Assembly: GCA_945861155.1 (NCBI GenBank)
Contig: CAMATN010000002.1
Location: forward strand, 1-64,000
Direction of reading: 5' to 3'
Source of the DNA: Rhizobium sp. Q54
GTDB taxonomy: Bacteria > Pseudomonadota > Alphaproteobacteria > ATCC43930 > CGMCC-115725
DNA: 64,000 nt
Shown piece after piece: positions 48,779 to 64,000 of this stretch. A model generated the notes under the pieces. That model did no database searches. It had not been told where the DNA came from and saw only the letters and a list, made by a program, of their open reading frames with translations. The position numbers and the translations under genes are program-made. Within the stretch, counting starts at the first letter, position 1, and each line of letters opens with the position of its first letter.

Positions 48779-50172
48779 AGCCGCTCAATCCGATTGTGGT
48801 TTCTGGCGTCGAGGTGCTGCCGCTCGTCGAGGGCGGCAAGGGCATTTCGATTTCGAATGGCGAGAGTTCGGGCGCGTGGGCCGCCTCGGGCGCGGTCGGC
48901 ACGTTTTCGGGCGTCAATGCGGACAGCTACAACGAAGCGGGCGAATTGATCCCGCAGGTCTATTTCGGCCGCACAAGGCGCGAGCGCCACGAGGAACTCG
49001 TCGCCTATGCGATCGACGGGGGCATTCAGCAGGCGCGCGTCGCCTATGAGCGCTCGAACGGCCAGGGCCGCGTCCACATGAACGTGCTGTGGGAAATGGC
49101 GGCGGCCGAGCGGGTATTGCACGGCGTGCTCGAAGGGGCGCGCGGGATGATCCACGGCGTCACCTGCGGCGCCGGCATGCCCTACCGGATCGCCGAGATC
49201 TCGGCCAGCTACGGCGTCTATTATTATCCGATCGTGTCGTCCGCCCGCGCCTTTCGGGCGCTATGGAAGCGGGCCTATCACAAATTTTGCGACTGGCTGG
49301 GCGGCGTCGTCTACGAGGATCCATGGCTCGCCGGGGGTCACAACGGCCTGACCAACAGCGAGGACCCCGAGCGGCCGGAGCCGGCCTATCCGCGGGTGCG
49401 CGAGCTGCGCACCCTGATGAGCGAATTCGGCTTGCACCAAACGCCGATCTTCATGGCCGGCGGGGTCTGGCGCCTGCACGACTGGGCCGATTGGATCGAC
49501 AATCCCGAGCTCGGCCCGGTTGCCTTCCAGTTCGGGACGCGGCCGTTGCTGACCCGCGAAAGCCCGATTTCGGACGCCTGGAAGCGCCGGCTCCTGACCC
49601 TTCAAGAGGGCGATGTCCTGCTCAATCGGTTCAGCCCGACCGGGTTCTATTCCTCCGCGGTCCACAACGATTTTCTGAAAGAGTTGCAGCAGCGTTCCGA
49701 GCATCAGGTCGCCTATACGGTCGAGCCGATCGGCGAGCATGTCGCGCCGTTCAATGTCGGGGCGCGCGGCCGCCTGGTCTATCTGACCTCGCACGATCGC
49801 GATTCGGCGCGGCGCTGGGTCGCCGACGGCTTTACCGAGGCGCTGCGCACCCCGGATTCGACGCTGATCCTGGTCACCCCGGCCAAGGCGCTCGAAATCC
49901 ACACCGACCAGATCAACTGCATGGGTTGCCTGAGCGCCTGCCAGTTCTCGAACTGGGCGCAGAACGAAAATGCCACGACCGGCAAAAAAGCGGACCCGCG
50001 CAGTTATTGCATTCAAAAGACGCTCCAGGCGATCCGCCACTCCGACGATGTCGAATTCCAGTTGATGTTCGCCGGGCACAACGCCTATCGCTTCGCCTCC
50101 GACCCGTTTTACGCGAACGGATACGTGCCTAGCGTCAAAGAATTGGTCGACCGGCTGCAAACCGGCGATTGA
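48775..50172 (+). CDS. Nitronate monooxygenase-like flavoprotein with C-terminal Cys motif
   Basis: VSGVEVLPLVEGGKGISISNGESSGAWAASGAVGTFSG; FMAGGVWRLHDWADWIDNPELGPVAFQFGTRPLLT; C-terminal CMGCLSACQFSNWAQ; GTGA overlap with upstream gene. Confidence 0.8.
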   Translation: MKPLNPIVVSGVEVLPLVEGGKGISISNGESSGAWAASGAVGTFSGVNADSYNEAGELIPQVYFGRTRRERHEELVAYAIDGGIQQARVAYERSNGQGRVHMNVLWEMAAAERVLHGVLEGARGMIHGVTCGAGMPYRIAEISASYGVYYYPIVSSARAFRALWKRAYHKFCDWLGGVVYEDPWLAGGHNGLTNSEDPERPEPAYPRVRELRTLMSEFGLHQTPIFMAGGVWRLHDWADWIDNPELGPVAFQFGTRPLLTRESPISDAWKRRLLTLQEGDVLLNRFSPTGFYSSAVHNDFLKELQQRSEHQVAYTVEPIGEHVAPFNVGARGRLVYLTSHDRDSARRWVADGFTEALRTPDSTLILVTPAKALEIHTDQINCMGCLSACQFSNWAQNENATTGKKADPRSYCIQKTLQAIRHSDDVEFQLMFAGHNAYRFASDPFYANGYVPSVKELVDRLQTGD

Positions 50173-50247
50173 TCCGATTTTCCCTAATGCAGCTCTTCTT
50201 GATACGGCGTACTTTGTTTTCGCCAGCACCGCGCTTATATCTGCGTC

Positions 50248-50670
50248 ATGGAATTGACGCCGTCCTGTCCTGACCTCCTCGGGCGCCTGCGCGCGGTGGG
50301 TCTGCGGCCCACGCGCCAGCGGCTCGCGCTCGCCCGGCTGCTGTTCGACGCCGGCGACCGGCATGTCACCGCCGAGCATTTGCACGGACAGGCGCTGGCC
50401 AGCGCGATCCGGGTGTCGCTCGCGACGGTCTACAATACGCTGCATCAATTCACCGCCGCCGGGCTGCTGCGCGAGGTCGTGGTCGAGCCGGGGCGCTCGT
50501 ATTTCGATACCAACATCGACGACCACCACCATTTCTTTTGCGAATCGATCGGCACGCTGCAGGACATACCGGGTCAAGGCGTGGTGGTCAGCGGACTCCC
50601 GCTTCCTCCCCCCGGCACCGAGATCCGCCGGGTAGAGGTCATCGTTCGCATTGGGCCGGAAAGCCGCTGA
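50248..50670 (+). CDS. irr: Fur family iron response regulator, Irr-like
   Basis: LRAVGLRPTRQRLALARLLF, VSLATVYNTLHQFTAAGLLREV, FDTNIDDHHHFFCES typical of Irr. Confidence 0.85.
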   Translation: MELTPSCPDLLGRLRAVGLRPTRQRLALARLLFDAGDRHVTAEHLHGQALASAIRVSLATVYNTLHQFTAAGLLREVVVEPGRSYFDTNIDDHHHFFCESIGTLQDIPGQGVVVSGLPLPPPGTEIRRVEVIVRIGPESR

Positions 50671-50949
50671 TCGCGGCGTTCAACTACCTCCGTAGTTTGG
50701 AACTTTTCTGATCTGTTGACTCAGGTCTCCGGCTGATCCTAAATCTGTCGATCGTAGCGGCTCGGCCGGGTTCCGCGACCACCCGTTCCCAAAAGCGTTG
50801 GGGGACGGATAGCGTGTTCGGAGAATCGACAGGCCGAAGCGCTAGCCGGGAATGATTTTGGCGAGGCGGAAGACGGTCACTATCGGCATCGATTGCGCAA
50901 CACGACCGCGCAACACGATGCCTCATCATTAATCGGAGGAGGCCCGAGG

Positions 50950-52356
50950 ATGGCACACCAAGACGACATCGCTCTGATGGCACACCTGATGCGACGTGCG
51001 GGCTTCGGAGCAGGCCGCGACGAACTCGAAGCGCGCGTGGCCAAGGGCTACGAGGCTACGGTTGAGGAATTGCTGCACCGTGAGGCGCAGCCCCCGGTCG
51101 ATGCCTATACGCTGCTGCGCTATCAGCCGGCGTCATTGTTGCCGGGCGGACAGCCGCCAATGGGCAACCTCAATTGGATGTACTACCTGGTCAACACCAA
51201 GCGGCCGCTCGAAGAGAAGACGGCCCTGTTCTGGCACCATGTCTTTGCCACCGGTAATTCGAAGGTGGACAATTACGATCAGCTGCTGGAGCAGATTGAA
51301 ATCTTCCGGCAGCGCGGCCTGGGCAGTTATCGCGATCTGCTGCTCGAGATGGCCAAAAACCCGACGATGATTTTCTGGCTGGACAACAACCAGAACCACG
51401 GCAAGGCGGTCAACGAGAACTGGGGCCGCGAGCTGCTCGAACTGTTCAGCCTGGGCGCCGGCAACTACACCGAGAAGGATGTGCGGGAATCGTCCCGCGC
51501 CTTCACCGGCTGGACCTTCGAGACCAAGATCCCGCGCGCACCTTATGGCCGGTTTCCCTGGAAGTTTGAGTATCGCCCCGAAGATCACGATGACGGCGAG
51601 AAAGAATTCCTCGGGCATAAGGGCCGGTTCAACGGCGAGGACATCATCAACATCATCGTGCAGCAGCCGGCTTGCGCTCGCTTCATCTGCCGGCACCTGT
51701 ACAATTTCTTCGTCGCCGATGAGGCTCAGGTGCCTGCCTGGCCGATTGAGCAGCCGCGCGACCCGAAGGCGATCGACACCCTCGCGGGAACCTTCAAGGA
51801 CTCGAATTTCGACATGACCGCCACGCTGCGGGTGTTGTTCAATTCGGATTTCTTCAAGAACGCCCGCTTCCAGCACATGAAATCGCCCGCCGAGGTGGTG
51901 GTCGGCACACTCCGGCTGGTCGGTGGCCATGAGCTCCCGCGACCGGGGTACGGCGAGCTGTCGATGAACACCGCCTATATGGGTCAAGATCTGCTCAACC
52001 CGCCATCGGTGGAAGGGTGGCACACCGGTAAGGAATGGATCAACAGCGGCTCGTTGATGGCCCGCGTCAACTTCTGCGCCGAAAAAATCGGCGATCCGGC
52101 GTTGCCCGGGGTTCGCGCCATCATCAACCGGCTGAAGGCGAAAGGCACGCTGAGCCCGGATCAGTTGGTCGATGGGTGCCTTGACCTGCTGGGCCCGGTG
52201 GAAATCGGTGCCGACACCAGGAAGGAGCTGGCCGCGCAGGCCACCGCGTGGGGCCAGACCAGCTGGGATAACGACAGCAATGCCAAGCTCGCCGACCTGC
52301 ACACCAGCCAGATGCTGCAATTGATCGTCGCGACGAGAGAGTATCAGTTCGCGTAA
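50950..52356 (+). CDS. DUF1800 family protein without obvious signal peptide
   Basis: AHLMRRAGFGAGRDELEARVAKGYEATVEELL; NENWGRELLELFSLGAGNYTEKDVRESSRAFTGWTF. Confidence 0.88.
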   Translation: MAHQDDIALMAHLMRRAGFGAGRDELEARVAKGYEATVEELLHREAQPPVDAYTLLRYQPASLLPGGQPPMGNLNWMYYLVNTKRPLEEKTALFWHHVFATGNSKVDNYDQLLEQIEIFRQRGLGSYRDLLLEMAKNPTMIFWLDNNQNHGKAVNENWGRELLELFSLGAGNYTEKDVRESSRAFTGWTFETKIPRAPYGRFPWKFEYRPEDHDDGEKEFLGHKGRFNGEDIINIIVQQPACARFICRHLYNFFVADEAQVPAWPIEQPRDPKAIDTLAGTFKDSNFDMTATLRVLFNSDFFKNARFQHMKSPAEVVVGTLRLVGGHELPRPGYGELSMNTAYMGQDLLNPPSVEGWHTGKEWINSGSLMARVNFCAEKIGDPALPGVRAIINRLKAKGTLSPDQLVDGCLDLLGPVEIGADTRKELAAQATAWGQTSWDNDSNAKLADLHTSQMLQLIVATREYQFA

Positions 52357-52388
52357 CAACTGACACTCATCAGACAAGGAGGAATACG

Positions 52389-53519
52389 ATGCCAGCGACT
52401 GAAAAAGACCCCGTAGTAGTCGTACTGCAACTCACCGGCGGGAACGATTATCTGAACACGGTGATTCCCTATAACAATCCGCTGTACCGCGATGGCCGGG
52501 CAGCGGTGGGGATCCCCGACAACCAGATCATGCACCTCGACAAGGACTATGGCATCCCGCATTACATGGCCCCACTGAAGCAGTTCTGGGATGAAGACAA
52601 GCTCGCCATCCTGCACGGCGTCGGCTACCCCAATTCGCCGCGCTCGCATTTCCGCTCGATGGACATCTGGCATACCTGCGAGCCGGAAAAGGTCGGGACC
52701 GAGGGTTGGCTGGGCCGGGTGGCGCGCGAATTCGACCCCAACAAAGAGAACGTCGTCACCACCGTAAACTTCGGGCCATGCCTGCCTCGCTCTCTGGTGG
52801 TACAGGATGTTCCGGTGGCGTGCGTGGCCGGCGCATTGGAAAAGTACGGCTTCCTGCCGACCATCCAGGGTGAGCAGCGCCTGCAGGTGCTCAATCGATT
52901 CTCGCAGATGTACCAGCCGGCGTTGGGCACCGGTCCGGTGATGGATTATCTCGGGACCACCGGCCTGGATTCTCTGAAGGGCGAGGACATCCTCAAGGTG
53001 GCGCCGCTGAAGTATTCGTCGACGGTGACGTATCCCAATACCTCGATCGCGCGCAAACTCAAGGGTATCGCCCAGGTGCATTTCGCCGATTTGGGCAGCC
53101 GGATCTTCTACTGCGATCACGGCACCTTTGACACGCATGCCGGGCAGAACCCCGGGCACGGCAATTTGTGGAGCGCGGTGACAGAGGGTCTCGACGCCTT
53201 CATGAAAGACCTTCGCGAGCACAATCACGCGGACAACGTCATCGTCCTGATGTTCTCGGAGTTCGGTCGCCGCGTGCAGGATAACGGCTCCGGCACGGAT
53301 CACGGCGCCGGTGGCGTGGCCTTTGTGCTCGGCGAGAAGGTCAAAGGCGGCCATTACGGCGAGATGCCCTCCCTGAAGCCGGAACATTTGGTTCAGGGCG
53401 ACCTCAACCCGAATATGGACTTCCGCAGCGTCTACTCGACGATCCTCGACAAATGGCTGAAGGTGAACCCAGCACCGATCGTCAACGGCACATTTGAGCA
53501 GCCGGCCTTCCTCAATTAA
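52389..53519 (+). CDS. DUF1501 family protein (sulfatase/alkaline phosphatase-like fold) without Tat signal
   Basis: VVVVLQLTGGNDYLNTVIPYNNPLYRDGR; NSPRSHFRSMDIWHT; FGRRVQDNGSGTDHGAGGVAFVLG. Confidence 0.88.
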   Translation: MPATEKDPVVVVLQLTGGNDYLNTVIPYNNPLYRDGRAAVGIPDNQIMHLDKDYGIPHYMAPLKQFWDEDKLAILHGVGYPNSPRSHFRSMDIWHTCEPEKVGTEGWLGRVAREFDPNKENVVTTVNFGPCLPRSLVVQDVPVACVAGALEKYGFLPTIQGEQRLQVLNRFSQMYQPALGTGPVMDYLGTTGLDSLKGEDILKVAPLKYSSTVTYPNTSIARKLKGIAQVHFADLGSRIFYCDHGTFDTHAGQNPGHGNLWSAVTEGLDAFMKDLREHNHADNVIVLMFSEFGRRVQDNGSGTDHGAGGVAFVLGEKVKGGHYGEMPSLKPEHLVQGDLNPNMDFRSVYSTILDKWLKVNPAPIVNGTFEQPAFLN

Positions 53520-53539
53520 CCGGAAGGCCGTCGGCTATC

Positions 53540-53577
53540 GCCCTCTTTCCCGTGGCACAGACCATGGGAAGGAGGGC
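53540..53577 (+). other. Strong intergenic hairpin (16 bp stem with G-U pairs, 6 nt loop)
   Basis: GCCCTCTTTCCCGTGG-CACAGA-CCATGGGAAGGAGGGC. Confidence 0.8.
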
Positions 53578-53652
53578 CCATGCCGAGGCAGCGTAAAGCG
53601 AACGCCTCCCGGATGCCGGAAGGCCGACAAGTGATTTGGATAGGAGCAAGCT

Positions 53653-54756
53653 ATGCCGCTGACAACGGTCGCGAGTGGACGCGTCTATGATTGGAGCCAT
53701 GCCGTCGGGCGCGGCGCGGCGCGGGGCACGGGGTTCAATTATCCGCAGACAATGTGCCTGGGTAAAGGTGGCATCGTCTACACCGCCAATCGGGGCAACG
53801 AAAACAATTTCGGGATGCACGTCAATAAAGTGAAACTCGGCGGTCCAGGCGAAGAAGAATTGCTCGCCGACTTTTTCGATTATGGCGAAGGGGACGGGCA
53901 TAGCACTTGGCCGTTTGGCGTCGCCACCGACGACCAGGACCATGTCTACGTCTCGGATGAATGGGAGAACTCGATCTCGGTGTTCGACACCAGCGGCAAG
54001 TTCCTGCGCAAATGGGGAACGACAGGCAGCGGCGATGGCGAGCTGCTGCGCCCCGCCGGTCTCGCGGTCGAGAAAAACGGCAATGTCATCGTCGTCGACA
54101 GCGGCAACAATCGCCTGCAAGTCTTCAGCCCCGAGGGGAAGTTTGTCGGGAAATGCGGCAAGGCTGGCAGCGGCCCCGGTGAGTTCAACCAGCCTTGGGG
54201 GATCACCCTCGATAAGGACGGCAACATCTTCGTCGCCGACTGGAAGAACCACCGCGTGCAAAAGCTGACCAACCAGGGCAAGCCGCTGATGAGCATCGGG
54301 GAATACGGCGCGATTGAAGCGCCCGAGGATTCCTATGCGGTGACCTACATGGGTCCGTTCATCGCCGCGGCCTCGGAGAAGGCGGGCAATCCCAGCCCCG
54401 GCAAGTTCAATCATCCGACCGATGTCGCGGTGGACAGCGATGGCGACATCTACGTCGCTGATTGGGGCAACCATCGGGTCTGCGTCTTCGATTCGGCTGG
54501 AAACCCGATTACCAGCCTGGTCGGCGATGCCCACGTGCTGTCCAAATGGGGCCAGCAGAGCATCGACGCCAACCCCGACATGATGAAAGCGCGGCGTCGG
54601 GTAAAGAGCCTCGAGCCGCAATGGCGTTTCTGCTTCCCGACCGCGGTCGATTTTGATCCGGAGACCGATACGGTCATCGTCGCCGACAGCCAGCGTAACC
54701 GCCTGCAGATCTACAAAAAGGTGCGCGACTACACCGATTTCCAGGCGAACCTGTAA
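53653..54756 (+). CDS. NHL-repeat (6-bladed beta-propeller) protein
   Basis: Repeated GxFxxPxGxAVDxxGxIYVADxxNHRVxxF units, e.g. GKFNHPTDVAVDSDGDIYVADWGNHRVCVFD. Confidence 0.92.
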   Translation: MPLTTVASGRVYDWSHAVGRGAARGTGFNYPQTMCLGKGGIVYTANRGNENNFGMHVNKVKLGGPGEEELLADFFDYGEGDGHSTWPFGVATDDQDHVYVSDEWENSISVFDTSGKFLRKWGTTGSGDGELLRPAGLAVEKNGNVIVVDSGNNRLQVFSPEGKFVGKCGKAGSGPGEFNQPWGITLDKDGNIFVADWKNHRVQKLTNQGKPLMSIGEYGAIEAPEDSYAVTYMGPFIAAASEKAGNPSPGKFNHPTDVAVDSDGDIYVADWGNHRVCVFDSAGNPITSLVGDAHVLSKWGQQSIDANPDMMKARRRVKSLEPQWRFCFPTAVDFDPETDTVIVADSQRNRLQIYKKVRDYTDFQANL

Positions 54757-54802
54757 CAGCTGCCGGACCGGGTGCCGCCACCGGCGCCCGGCGTAAGTCT
54801 TT

Positions 54803-54846
54803 CCGCTCTTTCCCGCCTTGCTTTGTGCGTCGGCGGGAAGGAGCGG
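54803..54846 (+). other. Second strong intergenic hairpin, sequence-related to 53540-53577
   Basis: CCGCTCTTTCCCGCC-14nt-GGCGGGAAGGAGCGG; 15 bp stem with one G-U. Confidence 0.8.
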
Positions 54847-54988
54847 TTTGCGTTAAAGCCCCCCACCGCCCACTCCCGCGAGCCGCTCCGGCAGCCCGGT
54901 TGCGTACGACAGGCGCGCATCACAGGCGCTGAATGCCTCGCGCCCGTGGTGCGCGCTCGCCGCCAGCGTCGGGCGCGCAATGGCATAG

Positions 54989-55005
54989 TTTAGAAATGCT
55001 CTAAT
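54989..55005. promoter_or_regulatory. Candidate Irr box/ICE (TTTAGAA-ATG-CTCTAAT) upstream of rubrerythrin
   Basis: Two mismatches to TTTAGAA-N3-TTCTAAA; immediately upstream of -35-like TTGACT (55009-55014) and -10-like CATATC (55031-55036). Confidence 0.5.
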
Positions 55006-55099
55006 CTATTGACTGGTCCGTCCGCCGACCCATATCGAAGCCATCCGTCGGGCGAGCCGCCCAACCGCGGCCACCTGTCCTGTGTCATAGGAGTGAAGG

Positions 55100-55519
55100 A
55101 TGGCGTCTCTTAAGAATTCCAAGACCGAGGACAATCTGAAGGAAGCGTTTTCCGGCGAAAGCCAAGCCAACCGCCGCTACCTGTATTTCGCGCAGAAGGC
55201 CGACGTTGAGGGCTTTAACGACGTCTCGGCCGTGTTCCGCTCGACTGCGGAGGGCGAGACCGGCCACGCCCATGGCCACCTCGAATTCCTCGAGGAAGTC
55301 GGCGACCCGACGACCGGAAAGCCGATCGGCCGTACCGGCGACAATCTGCGCGCCGCGATCGCCGGCGAAACCCATGAATACACCGATATGTATCCGGGCA
55401 TGGCGCGCACCGCCCGCGACGAAGGCTTCGACGAGATCGCCGATTGGTTCGAGACGCTGGCCAAGGCCGAGAAATCGCATGCCGGCCGCTTCCAGCGGGC
55501 GCTCGACACATTGGCCTGA
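55100..55519 (+). CDS. Rubrerythrin
   Basis: DNLKEAFSGESQANRRYLYFAQKADVEG...FRSTAEGETGHAHGHLEFL. Confidence 0.96.
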   Translation: MASLKNSKTEDNLKEAFSGESQANRRYLYFAQKADVEGFNDVSAVFRSTAEGETGHAHGHLEFLEEVGDPTTGKPIGRTGDNLRAAIAGETHEYTDMYPGMARTARDEGFDEIADWFETLAKAEKSHAGRFQRALDTLA

Positions 55520-55624
55520 TCCGACGCTGATCCGGGTGAACTAACGGGGGGTGCGGAGCATCGGCTGCTGCGCCCTTCTTCCATTTTGACCAGGCCGGGA
55601 CCATTCCGGCGATGAGGTGACCGG

Positions 55625-57001
55625 ATGCGGGAAGGCAGTCTGGACGCACCGACGCGTCATGTAATCCGGTGGGAAGACCCCGATTTCACCGACCGGGACA
55701 AGACCGAAGCGGAGATGCGGCGGATTTTCGATATCTGCCACGGCTGCCGGCGCTGCTTCAATCTGTGCGATTCGTTTCCGCGCCTGTTCGACCTGATCGA
55801 CAATTCGGCAACCGGCGAAGTTGACGGGGTCGCGGCGGCCGATTACCGGCAGGTCGCCGATGCCTGCACGCTCTGCGACATGTGCTTCATGACGAAATGC
55901 CCCTATGTGCCGCCGCACGAGTTCAACCTCGATTTCCCGCACGTGATGCTGCGCTACCGCGCCGTCGAACATAAGGAAGGGCTGGTGCCGTGGGCGCGCA
56001 CCGAGCTCGGCAAGACCGACCGCAACGGCCCACTCGCCCGCTTTGTCGCGCCGCTGGCAAATTGGGGGAGCGAGCGCCACAACCGGCTGACCCGGCCGGT
56101 GCTGGAAAAAACGGCTCGGGTCCATCGCGACGCCGAACTGCCCAAATATCACGGCACCACTTTCGCGATGCGGGCGCGCCGCGCGCCGCCGCCCGTCGAT
56201 TCGAGTGCTCCGGCGGCGGGCCGCAAGGCCGTGCTCTACGCGACCTGCTTCGTCAACTACAACAATCCGAGCATCGGCGAGGCGGCGCAGGCGGTGCTCG
56301 CGAAGAACGGGGTGGCGACCGAAATCGTCTACCCGCAATGCTGCCAGATGCCGCAACTCGAGGCCGGCGATCTCGCCAAGGTCGCGGCCGGCGCGCGGCA
56401 CGTCGCGGCGACGCTCGCGCCCTATATCGACCGGGGCTACGACATCATCGCGCTGGTGCCGTCGTGTGCGTTGATGCTGAAATTCGAATGGCCATTGATC
56501 GTGCCGGACGATCCGGCGGTCGAGAAGCTGGCGGGCGCGACCTTCGACATCGCCGAGTACATCGTCGGCATCGCCAAGAAGGAGGGGCTGGCGCCCGGGC
56601 TGCGGCCGCTCGACGGCGGCGTCACGCTGCACATCGCCTGCCATGCCCGGGCTCAGAACATGGGGCAGAAATCGGCCGAGATGCTGCGCCTGATACCCGA
56701 GGCGCAAATCGGCGTGATCGAGCGCTGCTCCGGCCATGGCGGCTCCTGGGGCGTGCTGAAGGAGAATTTCGAGACCGCGCTCAAGGTCGGAAAGCCGGTG
56801 GCGCGCCAGGCAATGCGCGCTCCGACGCCGTTCCTCGCGTCGGAATGCCCGCTCGCCGGGTTGCACATCCTGCAAGGGATGGAGCTGCTTGCCCAAGGCG
56901 AGAGCCTGCCCGACCGCTCGCTGCACCCGATCGAGCTGATCGCGCGCGCCTACGGCATCGCCATTAGCGCGCCGGAGCCCGGCACGAGGACGGCGCCATG
57001 A
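55625..57001 (+). CDS. CCG-domain/4Fe-4S heterodisulfide-reductase-related protein (GlpC-like)
   Basis: CHGCRRCFNLCDSFP, CTLCDMCFMTKCPYVPPHEF, YPQCCQMPQLE, CSGHGGSWG. Confidence 0.92.
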   Translation: MREGSLDAPTRHVIRWEDPDFTDRDKTEAEMRRIFDICHGCRRCFNLCDSFPRLFDLIDNSATGEVDGVAAADYRQVADACTLCDMCFMTKCPYVPPHEFNLDFPHVMLRYRAVEHKEGLVPWARTELGKTDRNGPLARFVAPLANWGSERHNRLTRPVLEKTARVHRDAELPKYHGTTFAMRARRAPPPVDSSAPAAGRKAVLYATCFVNYNNPSIGEAAQAVLAKNGVATEIVYPQCCQMPQLEAGDLAKVAAGARHVAATLAPYIDRGYDIIALVPSCALMLKFEWPLIVPDDPAVEKLAGATFDIAEYIVGIAKKEGLAPGLRPLDGGVTLHIACHARAQNMGQKSAEMLRLIPEAQIGVIERCSGHGGSWGVLKENFETALKVGKPVARQAMRAPTPFLASECPLAGLHILQGMELLAQGESLPDRSLHPIELIARAYGIAISAPEPGTRTAP

Positions 57002-57606
57002 CCGCGCCGCCATCGCGCGCCCGGCGCCAGCTCAGCCGCGCCGATATCCTGCCGATCGAGGAATACGTCAAAATCCGGCGCCAGCGCCGCAGCGAAATCT
57101 CCGAACTCAAGAAGCGCCGCCGGATCGAGATCGGCCCGTTCGCGACCTTCTATTTCGAGAATTTCGACACGATGTGGCAGCAGGTCCACGAGATGCTCTA
57201 CATCGAGAAGGGGGGCGAGGCGCAGATCGCGGACGAGCTGGCGGCCTACAACCCGCTCATTCCGCAAGGCGGCGAACTGGTGGCCACGGTCATGTTCGAG
57301 ATCGCCGACCCGACCCGGCGCGCCCGTGCGCTGGCGCAGCTCGGCGGGCTCGAGAACCATGCGATGATCGAATGCGCCATCGGGGGCGGGCGGGTCCGCG
57401 GCGAAGCGGACCCGACGCGCGAGAATACCAGCCCCGAGGGCAAGGCGTCGGCCGTGCAGTTCATCCGCTTTGCGCTCGCCCCGCAGCAGGTTGCCGCCTT
57501 CAAGGCGCCGGGCGGCCGGATCGTCGTCGGCTTCGACCATCCGCAATATGGCCATATGGCGACATTGCCCGAAACCGTCCGCGCCGCCCTCGCCGAGGAT
57601 CTATAA
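56998..57606 (+). CDS. DUF3501 family protein
   Basis: LSRADILPIEEYVKIRRQRRSEISELKKRRRIEIGPFATFYFENFDTMWQQVHEMLYIEKGG; ATGA overlap with the CCG gene. Confidence 0.9.
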   Translation: MTAPPSRARRQLSRADILPIEEYVKIRRQRRSEISELKKRRRIEIGPFATFYFENFDTMWQQVHEMLYIEKGGEAQIADELAAYNPLIPQGGELVATVMFEIADPTRRARALAQLGGLENHAMIECAIGGGRVRGEADPTRENTSPEGKASAVQFIRFALAPQQVAAFKAPGGRIVVGFDHPQYGHMATLPETVRAALAEDL

Positions 57607-57637
57607 CCAGCCACCATGGATCGCGGGACCGCCGCTG

Positions 57638-57657
57638 CGCCCCCGCGAAAGCGCAGG
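57638..57657. repeat. REP-like fragment (revcomp CCTGCGCTTTCGCGGGGGCG)
   Basis: Similar to 16403-16433. Confidence 0.4.
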
Positions 57658-57722
57658 TTGTCCGGTTAACCTCGGAAGCGCGGTGGTGAGAAGGGTTTAC
57701 AGCTAAATTGTCTCAGAAAAAT

Positions 57723-57817
57723 CCCCTTGGCCGGGCTTGTCCCGGCCATCCACGTCGTGAAACGCCCGTGAAGTGTCCAGGAAGACGTGGATGGCCGGGA
57801 CAAGCCCGGCCAAGGGG
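57723..57817. repeat. Intergenic element with perfect 34 bp inverted repeats
   Basis: CCCCTTGGCCGGGCTTGTCCCGGCCATCCACGTC (57723-57756) and its exact reverse complement (57784-57817), 27 bp spacer. Confidence 0.95.
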
Positions 57818-57941
57818 GGATCTGTGGTTGTGGCTGTGTACTTCCTTGCAACCGCATTGGTGTCTCCGGCAGCCCTGCGGCTTTTCGCGGGGTGACGAAC
57901 GCGGGAGACCGAGCGCCGCGTAAAATGCTATTGCGTGCGCG

Positions 57942-59774
57942 ATGCCGCCGCCCTTGCTTCTGCTACAGGATATCACCCTTACCTTTGGGGTCACGCCGCT
58001 CCTGTCCGGCGCGGAACTTGCCGTAGCCGCCGGCGACCGGCTCTGCCTGGTCGGGCGCAACTGCTCGGGCAAATCCACGCTGCTGCGCATTGCCGCCGGC
58101 CTCGTACAGCCTGACAGCGGGCGCCGCTTCGCCCAGCCCGGCGCCACGATCCGCTACCTGCCGCAGGAGCCCGACCTCTCCGGGTTCGCCACCGCGCTCG
58201 CCTATGTCGAGGACGGGCTCGATCCCGAGGCGGCCGAGAGTCGTCCCCCGGATCGCCACCGGGCGCTTTATCTGCTCAAGGAACTCGGCCTCACCGGCGC
58301 CGAAAACCCGGAATCGCTGTCGGGCGGCGAGGCTCGTCGCGCCGCGCTCGCCCGGGCGCTCGCCCCCTCGCCCGACATCCTCCTGCTCGACGAGCCGACC
58401 AACCATCTCGACCTGCCCGGCATCGAATGGCTGGAGCGCGAGCTGGCGGGCATGCGCTCGGGCATCGTGCTGATCAGCCACGACCGCCGGCTGCTCGAAC
58501 GCATTTCCCGCGGCACGGTCTGGCTCGACCGCGGCATCACCCGCACCCTCGACGAGGGTTTCACCGCGTTCGAGCCCTGGCGCGATACGGTGCTCGAGCA
58601 GGAAGAGACCGAGTTTCACAAGCTCGGCCGCAAGATCGCGATGGAGGAGGATTGGCTGCGCTACGGCGTTTCCGCCCGGCGCACCCGCAACCAGCGCCGA
58701 CTCGCCGATCTGTTTGCGCTGCGCCGCAAACGCAAGGAACAACGCGGCGCGCAGGGCATGGTCCGGCTCGACGCGGCGCAAGCCGATCTGTCCGGCCGGC
58801 TGGTTGCAGCGGCGCAAGGGATCGCGAAATCCTATGGGGGCCGCCCGGTCGTGCGCGATTTCTCGACCCGGATCATGCGCGGCGACCGGGTCGGCATTGT
58901 CGGCCCCAACGGCGCCGGCAAGACGACGTTGCTGAACCTGCTGACCGGCGCGCTCGCGCCCGATGCGGGCGAGGTCCGGCTCGGGACCAACCTCGCGCAG
59001 GTGACGCTCGACCAGCGCCGCGAGACCCTCGACCCGCAACAGACCCTGAGCGACGCGCTGACCGGCGGCGGCGGCGACAATGTCACGGTCGGCGGCCAGA
59101 CCCGGCATGTCGTCGGCTACATGAAAGACTATCTGTTCCGCCCCGAGCAGGCCCGCACCCCGGTCGGCGTCCTGTCCGGCGGCGAGCGCGCCCGGCTGAC
59201 CCTGGCACGCGCCTTCGCCCTTCCCTCCAACCTCTTGGCGCTCGACGAGCCGACCAACGATCTCGATCTCGAAACCCTCGATTTGTTGCAGGAGAAGCTG
59301 GCCGAGTATCCCGGCACGGTGCTGCTGGTCAGCCACGACCGCGATTTCCTCGACCGCGTCGTGGTCGCCACCATCGCCACCGAAGGGAACGGGCGCTGGA
59401 CCGAATACGCCGGCGGCTACACCGACATGCTGGCCCAGCGCGGAACGGCGCCGGCAACGGCCGCGGTGGCAAAGCGACCGCGTGCGGTGACTGAGGCCGG
59501 CGCACAGCCAGCCGCCCGCTCCCGCCGGATGAGTTTCAACGATCGACACGCGCTGGAGACATTGCCGGCCCGGATCGCGGCGTTACAGACGCAGATCGCC
59601 GGGCTGAATGCCGTCCTCGCCGACCCGGATTTGTACGCCAGCGATCCCGGACGGTTCAGCAAAACGACAGCGTCGCTCGCCACAGCACGGGACCAACTGG
59701 CCGCAGCCGAGGAACAGTGGCTGACCCTGGAAATGCAGCGCGAGGAGATCGAGGCGCTCGAACCAAAAACCTGA
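57942..59774 (+). CDS. ABC-F family ATPase (Uup-like)
   Basis: Two ABC modules: LVGRNCSGKSTLLR, LSGGEARRAALARALAPSPDILLLDEPTNHLD, GPNGAGKTTLLNLLTG, LSGGERARLTLARAF...ALDEPTNDLD. Confidence 0.95.
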   Translation: MPPPLLLLQDITLTFGVTPLLSGAELAVAAGDRLCLVGRNCSGKSTLLRIAAGLVQPDSGRRFAQPGATIRYLPQEPDLSGFATALAYVEDGLDPEAAESRPPDRHRALYLLKELGLTGAENPESLSGGEARRAALARALAPSPDILLLDEPTNHLDLPGIEWLERELAGMRSGIVLISHDRRLLERISRGTVWLDRGITRTLDEGFTAFEPWRDTVLEQEETEFHKLGRKIAMEEDWLRYGVSARRTRNQRRLADLFALRRKRKEQRGAQGMVRLDAAQADLSGRLVAAAQGIAKSYGGRPVVRDFSTRIMRGDRVGIVGPNGAGKTTLLNLLTGALAPDAGEVRLGTNLAQVTLDQRRETLDPQQTLSDALTGGGGDNVTVGGQTRHVVGYMKDYLFRPEQARTPVGVLSGGERARLTLARAFALPSNLLALDEPTNDLDLETLDLLQEKLAEYPGTVLLVSHDRDFLDRVVVATIATEGNGRWTEYAGGYTDMLAQRGTAPATAAVAKRPRAVTEAGAQPAARSRRMSFNDRHALETLPARIAALQTQIAGLNAVLADPDLYASDPGRFSKTTASLATARDQLAAAEEQWLTLEMQREEIEALEPKT

Positions 59775-59912
59775 TTCGCCTGATCATCGACGCCAGCTAT
59801 AGGTGGCAAGCGATCGCCCGATCCAGCACCGTACATGGACGGAATGCGCCAATAACAGATGCTGCTACGGCACCGCCTTGCGCACGGATGAGCGCGCCCT
59901 GAGATTAGAAGA

Positions 59913-61313
59913 ATGACCCCGACCGCTACCCAGCTCAAATTTCGCCTGGATCAGCGCCGCCGTTGGTTCGATAATGAATGGCTTTTCAAATGGCACCACA
60001 TTGGCGGTCAGCGCGTCGTCGAGATTGATATGTTCGACGGGCGGCAGGCACGATACGCCGGCATCAAATTTGACGGCAGTTCTCGTGACGTGTTTTGGGA
60101 TGCCGTCGCACGCGGGGTTCGGAAGGAGGTCATTGAACAGTTCGCCTGGGTAGAGGAGCGCGTTCGTGTCTATGCGCGCACGCAGACCGAGGTGGCGGTC
60201 GACGAGTGCGCGGGCTTATTGGCGGCCTTCGCCCAATCTGTGCGCTATGCCGCAGTCCAGAAGGACAGAATCCTCCGCGGCGACGGTCTTAACTTTCCGC
60301 CCCAGCAGGACGCCGGTATCTGGGTCGACGTGTCCGCCGGCGACATCGCTCGCCAAGCCGCGGCGCTCAAAGCGGCGCTGTTCCCACCGCAAACGGGTGT
60401 CCCGACCGGGGCAGTTCCGACGGTCCGCACCGCAACTGAAAGCGACAAACCCATTCCTGCCTACCAGGTCGCCCTATCATTTGCCGGTGAGCAGCGCGAA
60501 TACGTGGAGGCTGTCGCTCGCGCGCTGCATGCGCGTGGGATCGCGGTCTTCTATGATCGCTTCGAGCCCGTCACTCTCTGGGGCAAGGATGGGGCTGAAT
60601 TCTTCCATCAGTTGTTCGCGGCCGACACCGCCTACGTCGTGATGTTCATCTCCAGGGATTATGTCGCCAAGAAATGGACTCGCCACGAACGGCGCGCGGC
60701 GCTGAGTCGCGTGATCGCAGAGGAAGGCGAGTACGTTTTGCCCGTCCGATTCGACGACAGCATCGTCCCTGGCCTGCCCGATACGGTTCAGTATCTGAGG
60801 ACACAGGACTATGACCCGGCGGCCCTCGCCGCTCTGATTTCAGAGAAAATTGGCGTCCCTCCACTCACTGCCAAGGCATCCGACGTGCCCCCGCCTCAGG
60901 TCAGCTCGCTCGCGGGCGAGATCGCGTTCGACTACAGCGCGTTCAATGGCCGCTTCATCATCGGCTCAGGGGTGCGGCAATTTGAGACGATGTGGTCGAA
61001 GTCGAGCGACACGAGCATCACGCTTTACAACGACCCGCCGTCGATCAACGGGATTGCCGTGGTGCGGGGCGCAACTCGCATCGCCGATGTCTCCGATGCG
61101 TCGGTCTACGATTACACGTCGCGGACGCGGCGGCCGCAGCTCGGCGAAATAGCCGTACTGCGGAATATCCAAGGCTTCTATGCCGCGATTCATATTCTCC
61201 GTATCGACGACGACACGCGCGGCGCCGATCGCGACGAGATCCGGATCCGGTTTGCGATTCAGCCTGACGGTTCACCGTCGTTTTCCGCCTATACGGACGA
61301 CGCAATGACATGA
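59913..61313 (+). CDS. TIR-domain protein with uncharacterised N- and C-terminal domains
   Basis: Central YQVALSFAGEQREYVEAVARALHARGIAVFYDRFEPVTLWGKDGAEFFHQLFAADTAYVVMFISRDYVAKKWTRHERRAAL; candidate catalytic Glu259 in WTRHE. Confidence 0.85.
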   Translation: MTPTATQLKFRLDQRRRWFDNEWLFKWHHIGGQRVVEIDMFDGRQARYAGIKFDGSSRDVFWDAVARGVRKEVIEQFAWVEERVRVYARTQTEVAVDECAGLLAAFAQSVRYAAVQKDRILRGDGLNFPPQQDAGIWVDVSAGDIARQAAALKAALFPPQTGVPTGAVPTVRTATESDKPIPAYQVALSFAGEQREYVEAVARALHARGIAVFYDRFEPVTLWGKDGAEFFHQLFAADTAYVVMFISRDYVAKKWTRHERRAALSRVIAEEGEYVLPVRFDDSIVPGLPDTVQYLRTQDYDPAALAALISEKIGVPPLTAKASDVPPPQVSSLAGEIAFDYSAFNGRFIIGSGVRQFETMWSKSSDTSITLYNDPPSINGIAVVRGATRIADVSDASVYDYTSRTRRPQLGEIAVLRNIQGFYAAIHILRIDDDTRGADRDEIRIRFAIQPDGSPSFSAYTDDAMT

Positions 61314-61419
61314 GCTCCCTTAGCAAGAGACCTCCTGTGCGGATTCCAGAGCGCTCATTAGTCACGACCTTCACAACTGGTGCATGGCCTGCTGAGGCCG
61401 GCATATTGAGGATCACGAG

Positions 61420-62436
61420 ATGAGAGCCTATCGCATCGATCGCTTTGGCGGCGTTGACGGCATCGTACTCGGGTCGCGCGACGATCCGCTTCCGGGCGCT
61501 GGGCAAATCCTGCTTCGGGTGCGCGCGACGTCGCTGAATTACCGCGATCTGATGGTGCTGAAGGGCGGCGGACGCGGTCCGACCAGGCTCGGGGTGGTGC
61601 CGCTGAGCGACGGCGCGGGAGAGGTCGCGGCGGTCGGGGAGGGGGTCGGCCGGGTGGCGGTCGGCGACCGGGTCATCGGCTGCTTCCATCCGCGCTGGTT
61701 CGGCGGGCCGATCCGCCCCGAATACCTGACCGACCGCCTCGGCGCCAATCTCGACGGCATGCTGGCCGAATACGCGATCGTCAGCGAGGAAGCGGTTGTC
61801 AGGCTGCCGGGCGATTTGTCGTTTGAGGAGGCCGCGACCCTGCCCTGCGCCGCGGTGACCGCGTGGGTGGCGCTGACCGGCCATCGACGGGTCACCGCCG
61901 GTGACACGGTGTTGACGCAAGGCTCCGGCGGCGTCTCGATCTTCGCGCTGCAATTCGCGCGGCTGCTTGGCGCCCGGGTCATCGCGACGACATCGTCGGC
62001 CGCAAAGGCCGAGCGGCTGACGGCGCTCGGCGCCGCGGCGGTCATCAACTATGTCGAGACCCCGGAGTGGCACGAAGAGGTGGCCCGGCTGACCGACGGC
62101 CAGGGCGCCGATTGCGTCGTCGAGATCGGCGGGCCGGGCACGCTGGCGCATTCGATCAAATCGCTCGCGGTCGGCGGCCATATCAGCCTGATCGGCTCCA
62201 GCCTGTCGCGCTCGGGGATCGCGCTCGACCCGCTGCTGCTGGGCGGGCGGGGCATGACGCTCGGGTCGATCAGCGTCGGCAGCCGGGCCGATTTCGAGGC
62301 GATGAACCGGGCGATCGCACAGCATCGCCTGCGGCCGGTCATCGATCGGGTCTTCCCGTTCGCCGAGGCGGCAGAGGCCTACCGCTATTTCGAGAGAAGG
62401 GCACATTTCGGCAAGGTCGTGATAAGCCACGGCTGA
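61420..62436 (+). CDS. NAD(P)-dependent alcohol dehydrogenase (MDR, quinone-oxidoreductase-like)
   Basis: SLNYRDLMVLKGGG, VLTQGSGGVSIFALQFARLLGARVIATTSSAAKAERL. Confidence 0.94.
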   Translation: MRAYRIDRFGGVDGIVLGSRDDPLPGAGQILLRVRATSLNYRDLMVLKGGGRGPTRLGVVPLSDGAGEVAAVGEGVGRVAVGDRVIGCFHPRWFGGPIRPEYLTDRLGANLDGMLAEYAIVSEEAVVRLPGDLSFEEAATLPCAAVTAWVALTGHRRVTAGDTVLTQGSGGVSIFALQFARLLGARVIATTSSAAKAERLTALGAAAVINYVETPEWHEEVARLTDGQGADCVVEIGGPGTLAHSIKSLAVGGHISLIGSSLSRSGIALDPLLLGGRGMTLGSISVGSRADFEAMNRAIAQHRLRPVIDRVFPFAEAAEAYRYFERRAHFGKVVISHG

Positions 62437-62461
62437 TGTCCGGACAAACCAGGAGAAAACG

Positions 62462-63319
62462 ATGAACTGGACCGATCGGCGCCGGAAATTCCGCGCCATC
62501 CTGAAGGGCGAGCGCTGCTATCACCCGGCCTCGGTGTTCGATCCGCTATCGGCGCGGATCGCCCAGGATCTCGGGTTCGAGGTCGGCATGTTCGCCGGCT
62601 CGACCGCCTCGCTGACGGTGCTCGGCGCGCCCGATCTAATTCTGCTGACGCTTAGCGAGTTCGCCGCGCAGGCCTATCGCATCAACAGCGCCTTCGAGGT
62701 GCCGCTGCTGGTCGATGCCGACCACGGCTATGGCAATGCGCTCAACGTGATGCGCACGGTGCGGGAGCTGGAAACCGCCGGTGTGTCGGCGCTGACGATC
62801 GAGGACACGGCGCTGCCGCGCGGATACGGGGCTGGCGCCGGCGGCCTGATCTCGATCGAGGAGGGCGCCGCCAAGATGCGCGCGGCGCTCGCGGCGCGGC
62901 AGGACCCGGATCTGGTGATCGTCGGCCGCACCATCGCGATGGGGCTGACCAGCACCGAGGACGCCATCGCGCGCGCCAAGGCCTACGCGGCGGCCGGGGT
63001 GGACGCGTTCTTTTTTGTCGGGATGCAAACGCGCGCGCAACTCGAAGCCGCGGCGGCGGCGATCGACATCCCGATCATCATCGGCGGCGGTGCGGAGTTG
63101 ACCGATCTGGATTATCTCGGCTCAAAGCGGGTGCGCGTCGCGCTGCAAGGGCACCAGCCGATCATGGCGGCGGCGCAGGCGGTCCACGACACGCTGAAGG
63201 CGTTGCGCGACGGCGTGAAGCCGAAGGATCTGACGGGCGTGCCGTCAGCCGCGTTCATGGCGAAAGCGACCCGCGATGCCGACTATCAGCGCTGGACCAA
63301 CGAATTCCTCGGCGGCTGA
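62462..63319 (+). CDS. Isocitrate lyase/PEP mutase family protein, oxaloacetate-decarboxylase-like
   Basis: VLGAPDLILLTLSEFAAQAYRI, PLLVDADHGYGNALNVMRTVRELETAGVSALTIEDT. Confidence 0.92.
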   Translation: MNWTDRRRKFRAILKGERCYHPASVFDPLSARIAQDLGFEVGMFAGSTASLTVLGAPDLILLTLSEFAAQAYRINSAFEVPLLVDADHGYGNALNVMRTVRELETAGVSALTIEDTALPRGYGAGAGGLISIEEGAAKMRAALAARQDPDLVIVGRTIAMGLTSTEDAIARAKAYAAAGVDAFFFVGMQTRAQLEAAAAAIDIPIIIGGGAELTDLDYLGSKRVRVALQGHQPIMAAAQAVHDTLKALRDGVKPKDLTGVPSAAFMAKATRDADYQRWTNEFLGG

Positions 63320-63339
63320 CGCGGCAGCCAAGTGAGAGC

Positions 63340-64000
63340 CTAAGTGACCTGGAAGCGGTGGTCGTCGTCGCTCGCCATGTCGTGCACGAGATTGATCTCC
63401 CAGGCGAGGTATTCGCGCATCGCCGCTTCCCGGTCCTGACCCCGCTCGCGCGCCGAGAGAACGACATCGTCGGGCTCGCCGGCCATGCGGGTCGCACCGG
63501 TTTCCAGCGGGAAGCCGGTTCGGACCCACGCCTGCGTTCCGCCCGACAGCACCATGACCGGGACCCTCCCGGCGCCGGCGATGTCGGAAGCGGCGAGGCG
63601 CGCCAGCGCATCGTCCGGCGACGTCAGTACGACCGTTTCCGCCTTTGGGAGCGCCGCCAGGGCCTCGGGGAGCCGCGAGCGGACCGCGAACCAGGCGCCC
63701 GGAATATGGCCCTGGGCATAGCGCCGGCTGGTGTCGAGATCGATGATTGCGGCAGTGCCGGCCGCCAGCTGCTCGCGCAATCCGGCCGGCTCGATGGTCG
63801 TTACGGTAACGCCATCCAACCCGAGCGCGCGCGGCGCGTGAGGTCCGCTGACCCAGTCGTCCTCCGCCCAGCCGCCTTCTGCCGCATTGGCGGCGAGCAC
63901 CGCGACCTCGGTCCAGCCCATCTGCTTCAGCCACGACGCGGTTATCGTCGCCCGGACGCCGTCATTATCGACCAGCACGATCCGCGCGCCCCAAATCGCG
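63340..64000 (-). CDS. Rhodanese-domain sulfurtransferase, truncated at the window edge
   Basis: Open to base 64000 (AIWGARIVLVDNDGVRATITASWLKQMGW...; AAIIDLDTSRRYAQGHIPGAW). Confidence 0.88.
   Translation of the reverse strand, partial: AIWGARIVLVDNDGVRATITASWLKQMGWTEVAVLAANAAEGGWAEDDWVSGPHAPRALGLDGVTVTTIEPAGLREQLAAGTAAIIDLDTSRRYAQGHIPGAWFAVRSRLPEALAALPKAETVVLTSPDDALARLAASDIAGAGRVPVMVLSGGTQAWVRTGFPLETGATRMAGEPDDVVLSARERGQDREAAMREYLAWEINLVHDMASDDDHRFQVT

Follow-up and report, generated by a model that had tools for sequence, protein, structure and literature searches.

A TIR protein of Rhizobium sp. Q54 with a portable C-terminal module, perhaps a shared trigger for single-gene phage defences

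Architecture, TIR domain and genomic setting

The DNA analysed here, referred to as the window, comprises the first 64,000 nucleotides of contig CAMATN010000002.1 of Rhizobium sp. Q54. An intact open reading frame with an ATG start lies on the forward strand at 59913..61313, exactly where the first-pass annotation had placed it, and encodes a 466-aa protein in three parts, each of which has relatives that were found separately. An N-terminal module (N-module; aa 1-182, 59913..60458) is followed by a TIR domain with its linker (aa 183-330, 60459..60902) and by a C-terminal module (C-module; aa 331-466 with a core of about 334-450, 60903..61310), a portable all-beta domain that is proposed here to act as the sensor. 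All three parts are encoded on the + strand.

The Pfam TIR_2 model covers aa 186-308 (E 5.5e-17) and is the sole Pfam match at a sensible threshold. Consistent with this, a sequence search of the PDB matched the TIR region to bacterial TIR NADase structures, and the predicted fold is closest to that of AbTir (Foldseek, 7uxu, TM 0.81). Glu259 (codon 60687..60689, + strand), which lies within KKWTRHERR, is aligned over the glutamate of the AbTir WTNYEL motif, and its equivalent is conserved in three homologues that combine TIR and C-module (TIR-C proteins), namely those of genome G606, Rhodothermales (L069) and Marinobacterium (L047). The clear TIR domain and the glutamate at the NADase position that had been read from the sequence at the outset are therefore sound assignments. 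This is likely to be an NAD-destroying domain, with Glu259 as the putative catalytic residue of a putative NADase. Elsewhere, a Priestia megaterium plasmid (L089:1499-3411) carries two TIR genes side by side, close to one for a DNA cytosine methyltransferase; in the second the TIR domain is C-terminal and 42% identical to that of the window.

The neighbouring genes encode an ABC-F ATPase, a zinc-binding dehydrogenase (ADH) and a PEP-mutase-like protein, in agreement with the ABC-F and metabolic neighbours first described. These flanks are of housekeeping type, and no defence gene adjoins the window copy. The GC3 of the reading frame is 0.725, whereas 42 window ORFs average 0.83 (sd 0.065); the less GC-rich composition noted earlier is real in direction, but at about 1.6 sd the deviation is modest. 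No tRNA was found within 50000-64000, and no direct repeat of at least 8 bp links the two flanks of the gene.

No relative of the gene was found in the 42 other genomes of the order that were searched, which include seven congeners. The nearest TIR-C homologues come from a different family of the same class, from Rhodothermales and from Marinobacterium. The contig itself is host-like: two congeners carry versions of its ABC-F gene with 75-76% identity. What follows ABC-F is a different gene in each congener, and the TIR gene is absent there. Since no examined relative keeps the ABC-F/ADH junction, an empty site is not demonstrable, and the gene-sized insertion proposed at first pass, for which an empty junction in close relatives had been suggested as a check, stands on its absence from those 42 genomes and not on a vacant locus. 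The neighbouring dehydrogenase gene (61420-62436) has an 86% paralogue in the same genome (L011, G000:C113:9124-10137), preceded by a sugar-epimerase-like ORF rather than by TIR, which leaves the insertion unsettled; the best congener matches to this dehydrogenase are 42% or less.

The absence from these 42 genomes indicates that the gene is sporadic and was probably acquired horizontally. It also bears on the reading that this is a housekeeping protein of the lineage that merely resembles defence TIRs. The housekeeping-type neighbours and the mildly deviant composition are what such a protein would have, but its distribution contradicts this: no counterpart was found in the 42 other genomes of the order, and the nearest homologues lie in another family of the class, in Rhodothermales and in Marinobacterium, which makes the housekeeping explanation highly improbable.

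An exchangeable N-module and a widespread C-module

Neither flanking module could be assigned when the gene was first described, and on its own neither matches a model in Pfam, NCBIfam or PADLOC. Comparison with the 467-aa homologue in G606, which belongs to a different family of the class, separates the two. The TIR domains are 70% and the C-modules 59% identical, whereas the N-terminal regions align no better than chance (score 30; shuffled sequences average 29.7). Moreover, the Rhodothermales and Marinobacterium TIR-C proteins have no N-module. The window N-module instead resembles the start of an Acetobacter plasmid protein (37% over 153 aa; score 294 against 30 for shuffled sequences), the C-terminal part of which differs from that of the window protein. 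That plasmid gene (L025:1551-11374) is flanked by one gene for a TPR protein and one for a protein with a CHAT domain, a setting that recalls conflict systems. The N-module is predicted to be mostly helical, with low confidence (low pLDDT), and a PDB match to a Crp/Fnr regulator (E 0.18) was taken as chance. As judged from these sequence comparisons, the conserved unit is TIR plus C-module and the N-module is an exchangeable add-on. The original description of a single-gene sensor-TIR effector thus survives in its tripartite layout, its sporadic occurrence and its likely C-terminal sensor, but had missed both the exchangeability of the N-module and the TIR plus C-module unit.

The C-module (aa ~331-458) is a genuine domain. 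Searches of plasmids were the first to match aa 333-458 to proteins with different N-terminal halves. A scan of genome contigs with the whole protein found no relative, but a scan with a three-row alignment of the C-module gave 39 loci; together with plasmid and phage-record copies, 43 copies were aligned. According to record titles these come from about 13 phyla, namely Pseudomonadota, Bacteroidota, Rhodothermota, Gemmatimonadota, Nitrospirota, Binatota, Spirochaetota, Campylobacterota, Bacillota, Cyanobacteriota, Verrucomicrobiota, Patescibacteria and Actinomycetota. Some of the source genomes are MAGs, and the label 'Bacillus sp. 2B10' may be wrong, as its copy is very like that of Croceicoccus. 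The frequency is ~1% of genomes sampled across the phylum (4/399, the window's own included). On a Rhizobium sp. T1473 plasmid, a 346-aa ORF (L091:3953-4993) that is unannotated in the record table has a divergent C-module first, followed by an unassigned part.

The window C-module is 24-55% identical to the other 42 members, carries the family signature (FDYSxxNG, IGxG, FETxWSK, SSRxR) and matches the family profile with E 1.4e-55, although that profile includes the window copy. No model for it was found in Pfam, NCBIfam, PHROGs or PADLOC, and isolated C-modules, including that of the window, did not match the PADLOC bSEFIR model. A search of the open-access literature returned no description of it. 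The module therefore appears to be unnamed in the libraries and literature searched. Viral contigs scanned with the C-module, the N-module and TIR-C gave nothing convincing; the sole match (L072) was rejected for its low similarity and small ORF, and viral fold matches of the C-module were weak and uninformative. A Serratia SEFIR-C gene had no DNA relative in E. coli genomes.

The AlphaFold model of the C-module is mostly beta, with a mean pLDDT of 94.2. Its best PDB matches (Foldseek) are members of the HmuY family, namely BfrB (8b6a; E 6e-4, prob 1.0, TM 0.53 by query), HmuY (3h8t, 6ewm) and BVU_2192 (3u22), and the full-length model recovers the same match to 8b6a. However, the 8b6a superposition is poor (rmsd about 8 Å, 14% identity) and the other matches are weaker. 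HmuY proteins are secreted haem binders. The C-module differs in that it has no Pfam HmuY match and no conserved histidine as haem ligand. The resemblance weakly suggests, as a hint from a predicted model and as proof of neither family nor haem, that the module may hold a small ligand.

Residues Phe339, Asp340, Tyr341, Ser342, Asn345, Gly346, Gly351, Phe357, Ser403, Arg406 and Asn418 are invariant in the folding set, and the polar residues among them suggest a conserved ligand. Direct recognition of a conserved phage protein by the C-module, as is known for other TIR defences (PMC12847820, PMC12578639), is distinctly unlikely here, as the same residues in about 13 phyla would need one surface to be conserved across very different phages. 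It is tentatively possible, from the comparative pattern, that the module is a receptor for one conserved infection signal, used by stand-alone proteins in those phyla without a linked signal-making gene.

Partner domains, neighbourhoods and mobility

The most frequent partner among the 43 copies is SEFIR (23), followed by transmembrane (TM) parts (5), TIR (3), PIN-like (3), DUF4062 (2), wHTH (2), AbiH (1) and TM plus coil (1); one copy stands alone, and in two the C-module comes first and a TM part follows. The SEFIR, TIR, DUF4062 and AbiH partners are backed by Pfam, whereas the PIN-like and TM labels are readings of the sequences, PIN without Pfam confirmation. The partners include six or more kinds of putative cell-killing domain. 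A tree of the C-modules requires 12 changes of partner label; the PIN-like copies form a group on a single branch, and so do the wHTH copies. The window copy and the TIR copy of Rhodothermales form a pair (98/95), and the Marinobacterium TIR copy lies apart with weak support.

A single module kept constant beside many alternative killing domains is what one would expect of a receptor, and the constancy of the C-module makes it the likely sensor. The main rival, which we consider unlikely, holds that the C-module is a scaffold or oligomerisation domain, with recognition of the trigger left to the N-module or to an unlinked protein. In its favour, homologues that are otherwise close differ in their N-modules, and such variation is common in recognition parts. 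However, most C-module proteins, among them the TIR-C proteins L069 and L047 and the SEFIR-C cassettes, lack an N-module, so that a scaffold role would leave most relatives sensorless; moreover, polar residues that are invariant across phyla are more readily explained by a conserved ligand than by assembly alone.

At 38 C-module loci the two closest genes on either flank were inspected, giving 136 ORFs called by a simple script. They matched LmuA/LmuB (Lamassu), GajB (Gabija), type I specificity, type IIG restriction, Lit, SoFic, Tmn and DrmMI models, as well as HEPN proteins, integrases, transposases and ArdC. Defence genes therefore adjoin C-module relatives, an association that carries no p-value and no matched background loci. 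As to the enrichment in defence islands that had been proposed as a check, defence genes were seen beside relatives, but not beside the window copy with its housekeeping-type flanks. Directly upstream of the closest TIR-C relative, that of Rhodothermales (L069:6383-7504), lies a SoFic-like Fic gene, with a T5orf172-type helicase protein encoded downstream. On a short, unverified phage-labelled contig (L030:781-4354), a gene resembling a type III restriction helicase precedes one that encodes TM plus C-module.

Two relatives are cassettes of integrons. The SEFIR-C gene of Xanthomonas LMG 31884 (L052:7361-8445) has an attC copy on either side, two of the nine in its array, and the TIR-C gene of Marinobacterium (L047:498-2277) is embedded in a series of attC-like repeats. 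Those in Colwellia (L035) and Synechococcus (L055) look like similar cassettes. A lone cassette implies that a fixed partner gene is not needed. The occurrence of several relatives on plasmids and in cassettes would also suit a toxin-like or stress-response TIR protein, such as a plasmid-stability or growth-arrest factor unrelated to phage. This reading is improbable: there is no conserved antitoxin partner, and the SEFIR, AbiH and DUF4062 partners have reported antiphage roles (PADLOC models; for DUF4062, PMC13174449).

Proposed mechanism and relation to known systems

With the architecture, the TIR fold and its glutamate, the C-module family, the swapping of its partners and the mobility of its relatives established, we infer three functions: that the C-module senses, that the TIR domain acts as an NADase and that the protein defends against phage. 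The preferred reading, to which a probability of roughly 57% is given, is that of a single-gene abortive-infection TIR effector, probably acquired horizontally, in which the C-module serves as a portable receptor. The TIR domain would stay inactive until triggered. An infection-borne trigger, either a small molecule or something conserved that phage or host produces, would bind the C-module and cause the protein to assemble, whereupon the assembled TIR domain, via Glu259, would break down NAD+ or make an ADP-ribose signal. Growth of the cell would then stop before the phage could spread. The N-module would be an interchangeable extra that helps with localisation or assembly or adds specificity.

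Few of the known single-gene TIR defences have an established trigger. As many unrelated killing domains share the conserved C-module, which may act as their common trigger, the question can be put a single time for the whole set: what does the module bind? It also provides a search handle for unannotated defence genes, including those in integron cassettes.

The window locus differs from the multi-gene TIR systems in its neighbours. No ThsA effector gene, as in Thoeris, lies beside the TIR gene, which is flanked by the ABC-F and zinc dehydrogenase genes; no nucleotide cyclase of CBASS or Pycsar was found among the flanking genes, and there is no short Argonaute neighbour as in SPARTA (TIR-APAZ), Foldseek matches to SPARTA having TM of about 0.26 and a high rmsd beyond the TIR domain. 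CARF and SAVED are familiar receptors joined to many effectors. The C-module resembles CARF, SAVED and STING in pairing a constant sensor with many effector types, as an analogy of architecture only, and differs in that no conserved signal-making enzyme is linked to it; it has no PADLOC or Pfam match to these families. If it is indeed an undescribed receptor for one conserved infection signal, the C-module would play the CARF/SAVED/STING role for TIR, SEFIR, PIN-like, membrane, DUF4062 and AbiH proteins.

Among individual proteins, AbTir shares the TIR fold and the aligned glutamate, but has no C-module, and the identity is about 21%. SpbK, a single-gene TIR NADase that is fused to another domain and acts by abortive infection, recognises the phage protein YonE (PMC12847820); it is alike in being one gene with such a fusion, and differs, by its description in that source, in that no C-module or N-module of the window's kind is reported. 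Staphylococcal Thoeris TIR proteins recognise virion proteins (PMC12578639). DUF4062 was newly reported as an antiphage NADase family, Swarozyc; this killing domain is also found on two C-module proteins (L060, L067), but the Swarozyc auxiliary domain is an HTH/winged-helix and not a C-module (PMC13174449).

Another close likeness is to bSEFIR (PADLOC PDLC03957). SEFIR plus C-module is the commonest C-module architecture, and those proteins match bSEFIR strongly. The window protein differs in having TIR in place of SEFIR, together with an added N-module; it has no SEFIR by Pfam, and the bSEFIR model matches it with E 0.048 on the TIR domain only. The PADLOC model spans mainly the SEFIR half, with a single case in which it extends into the C-module, and bSEFIR, a known system, may already contain this module.
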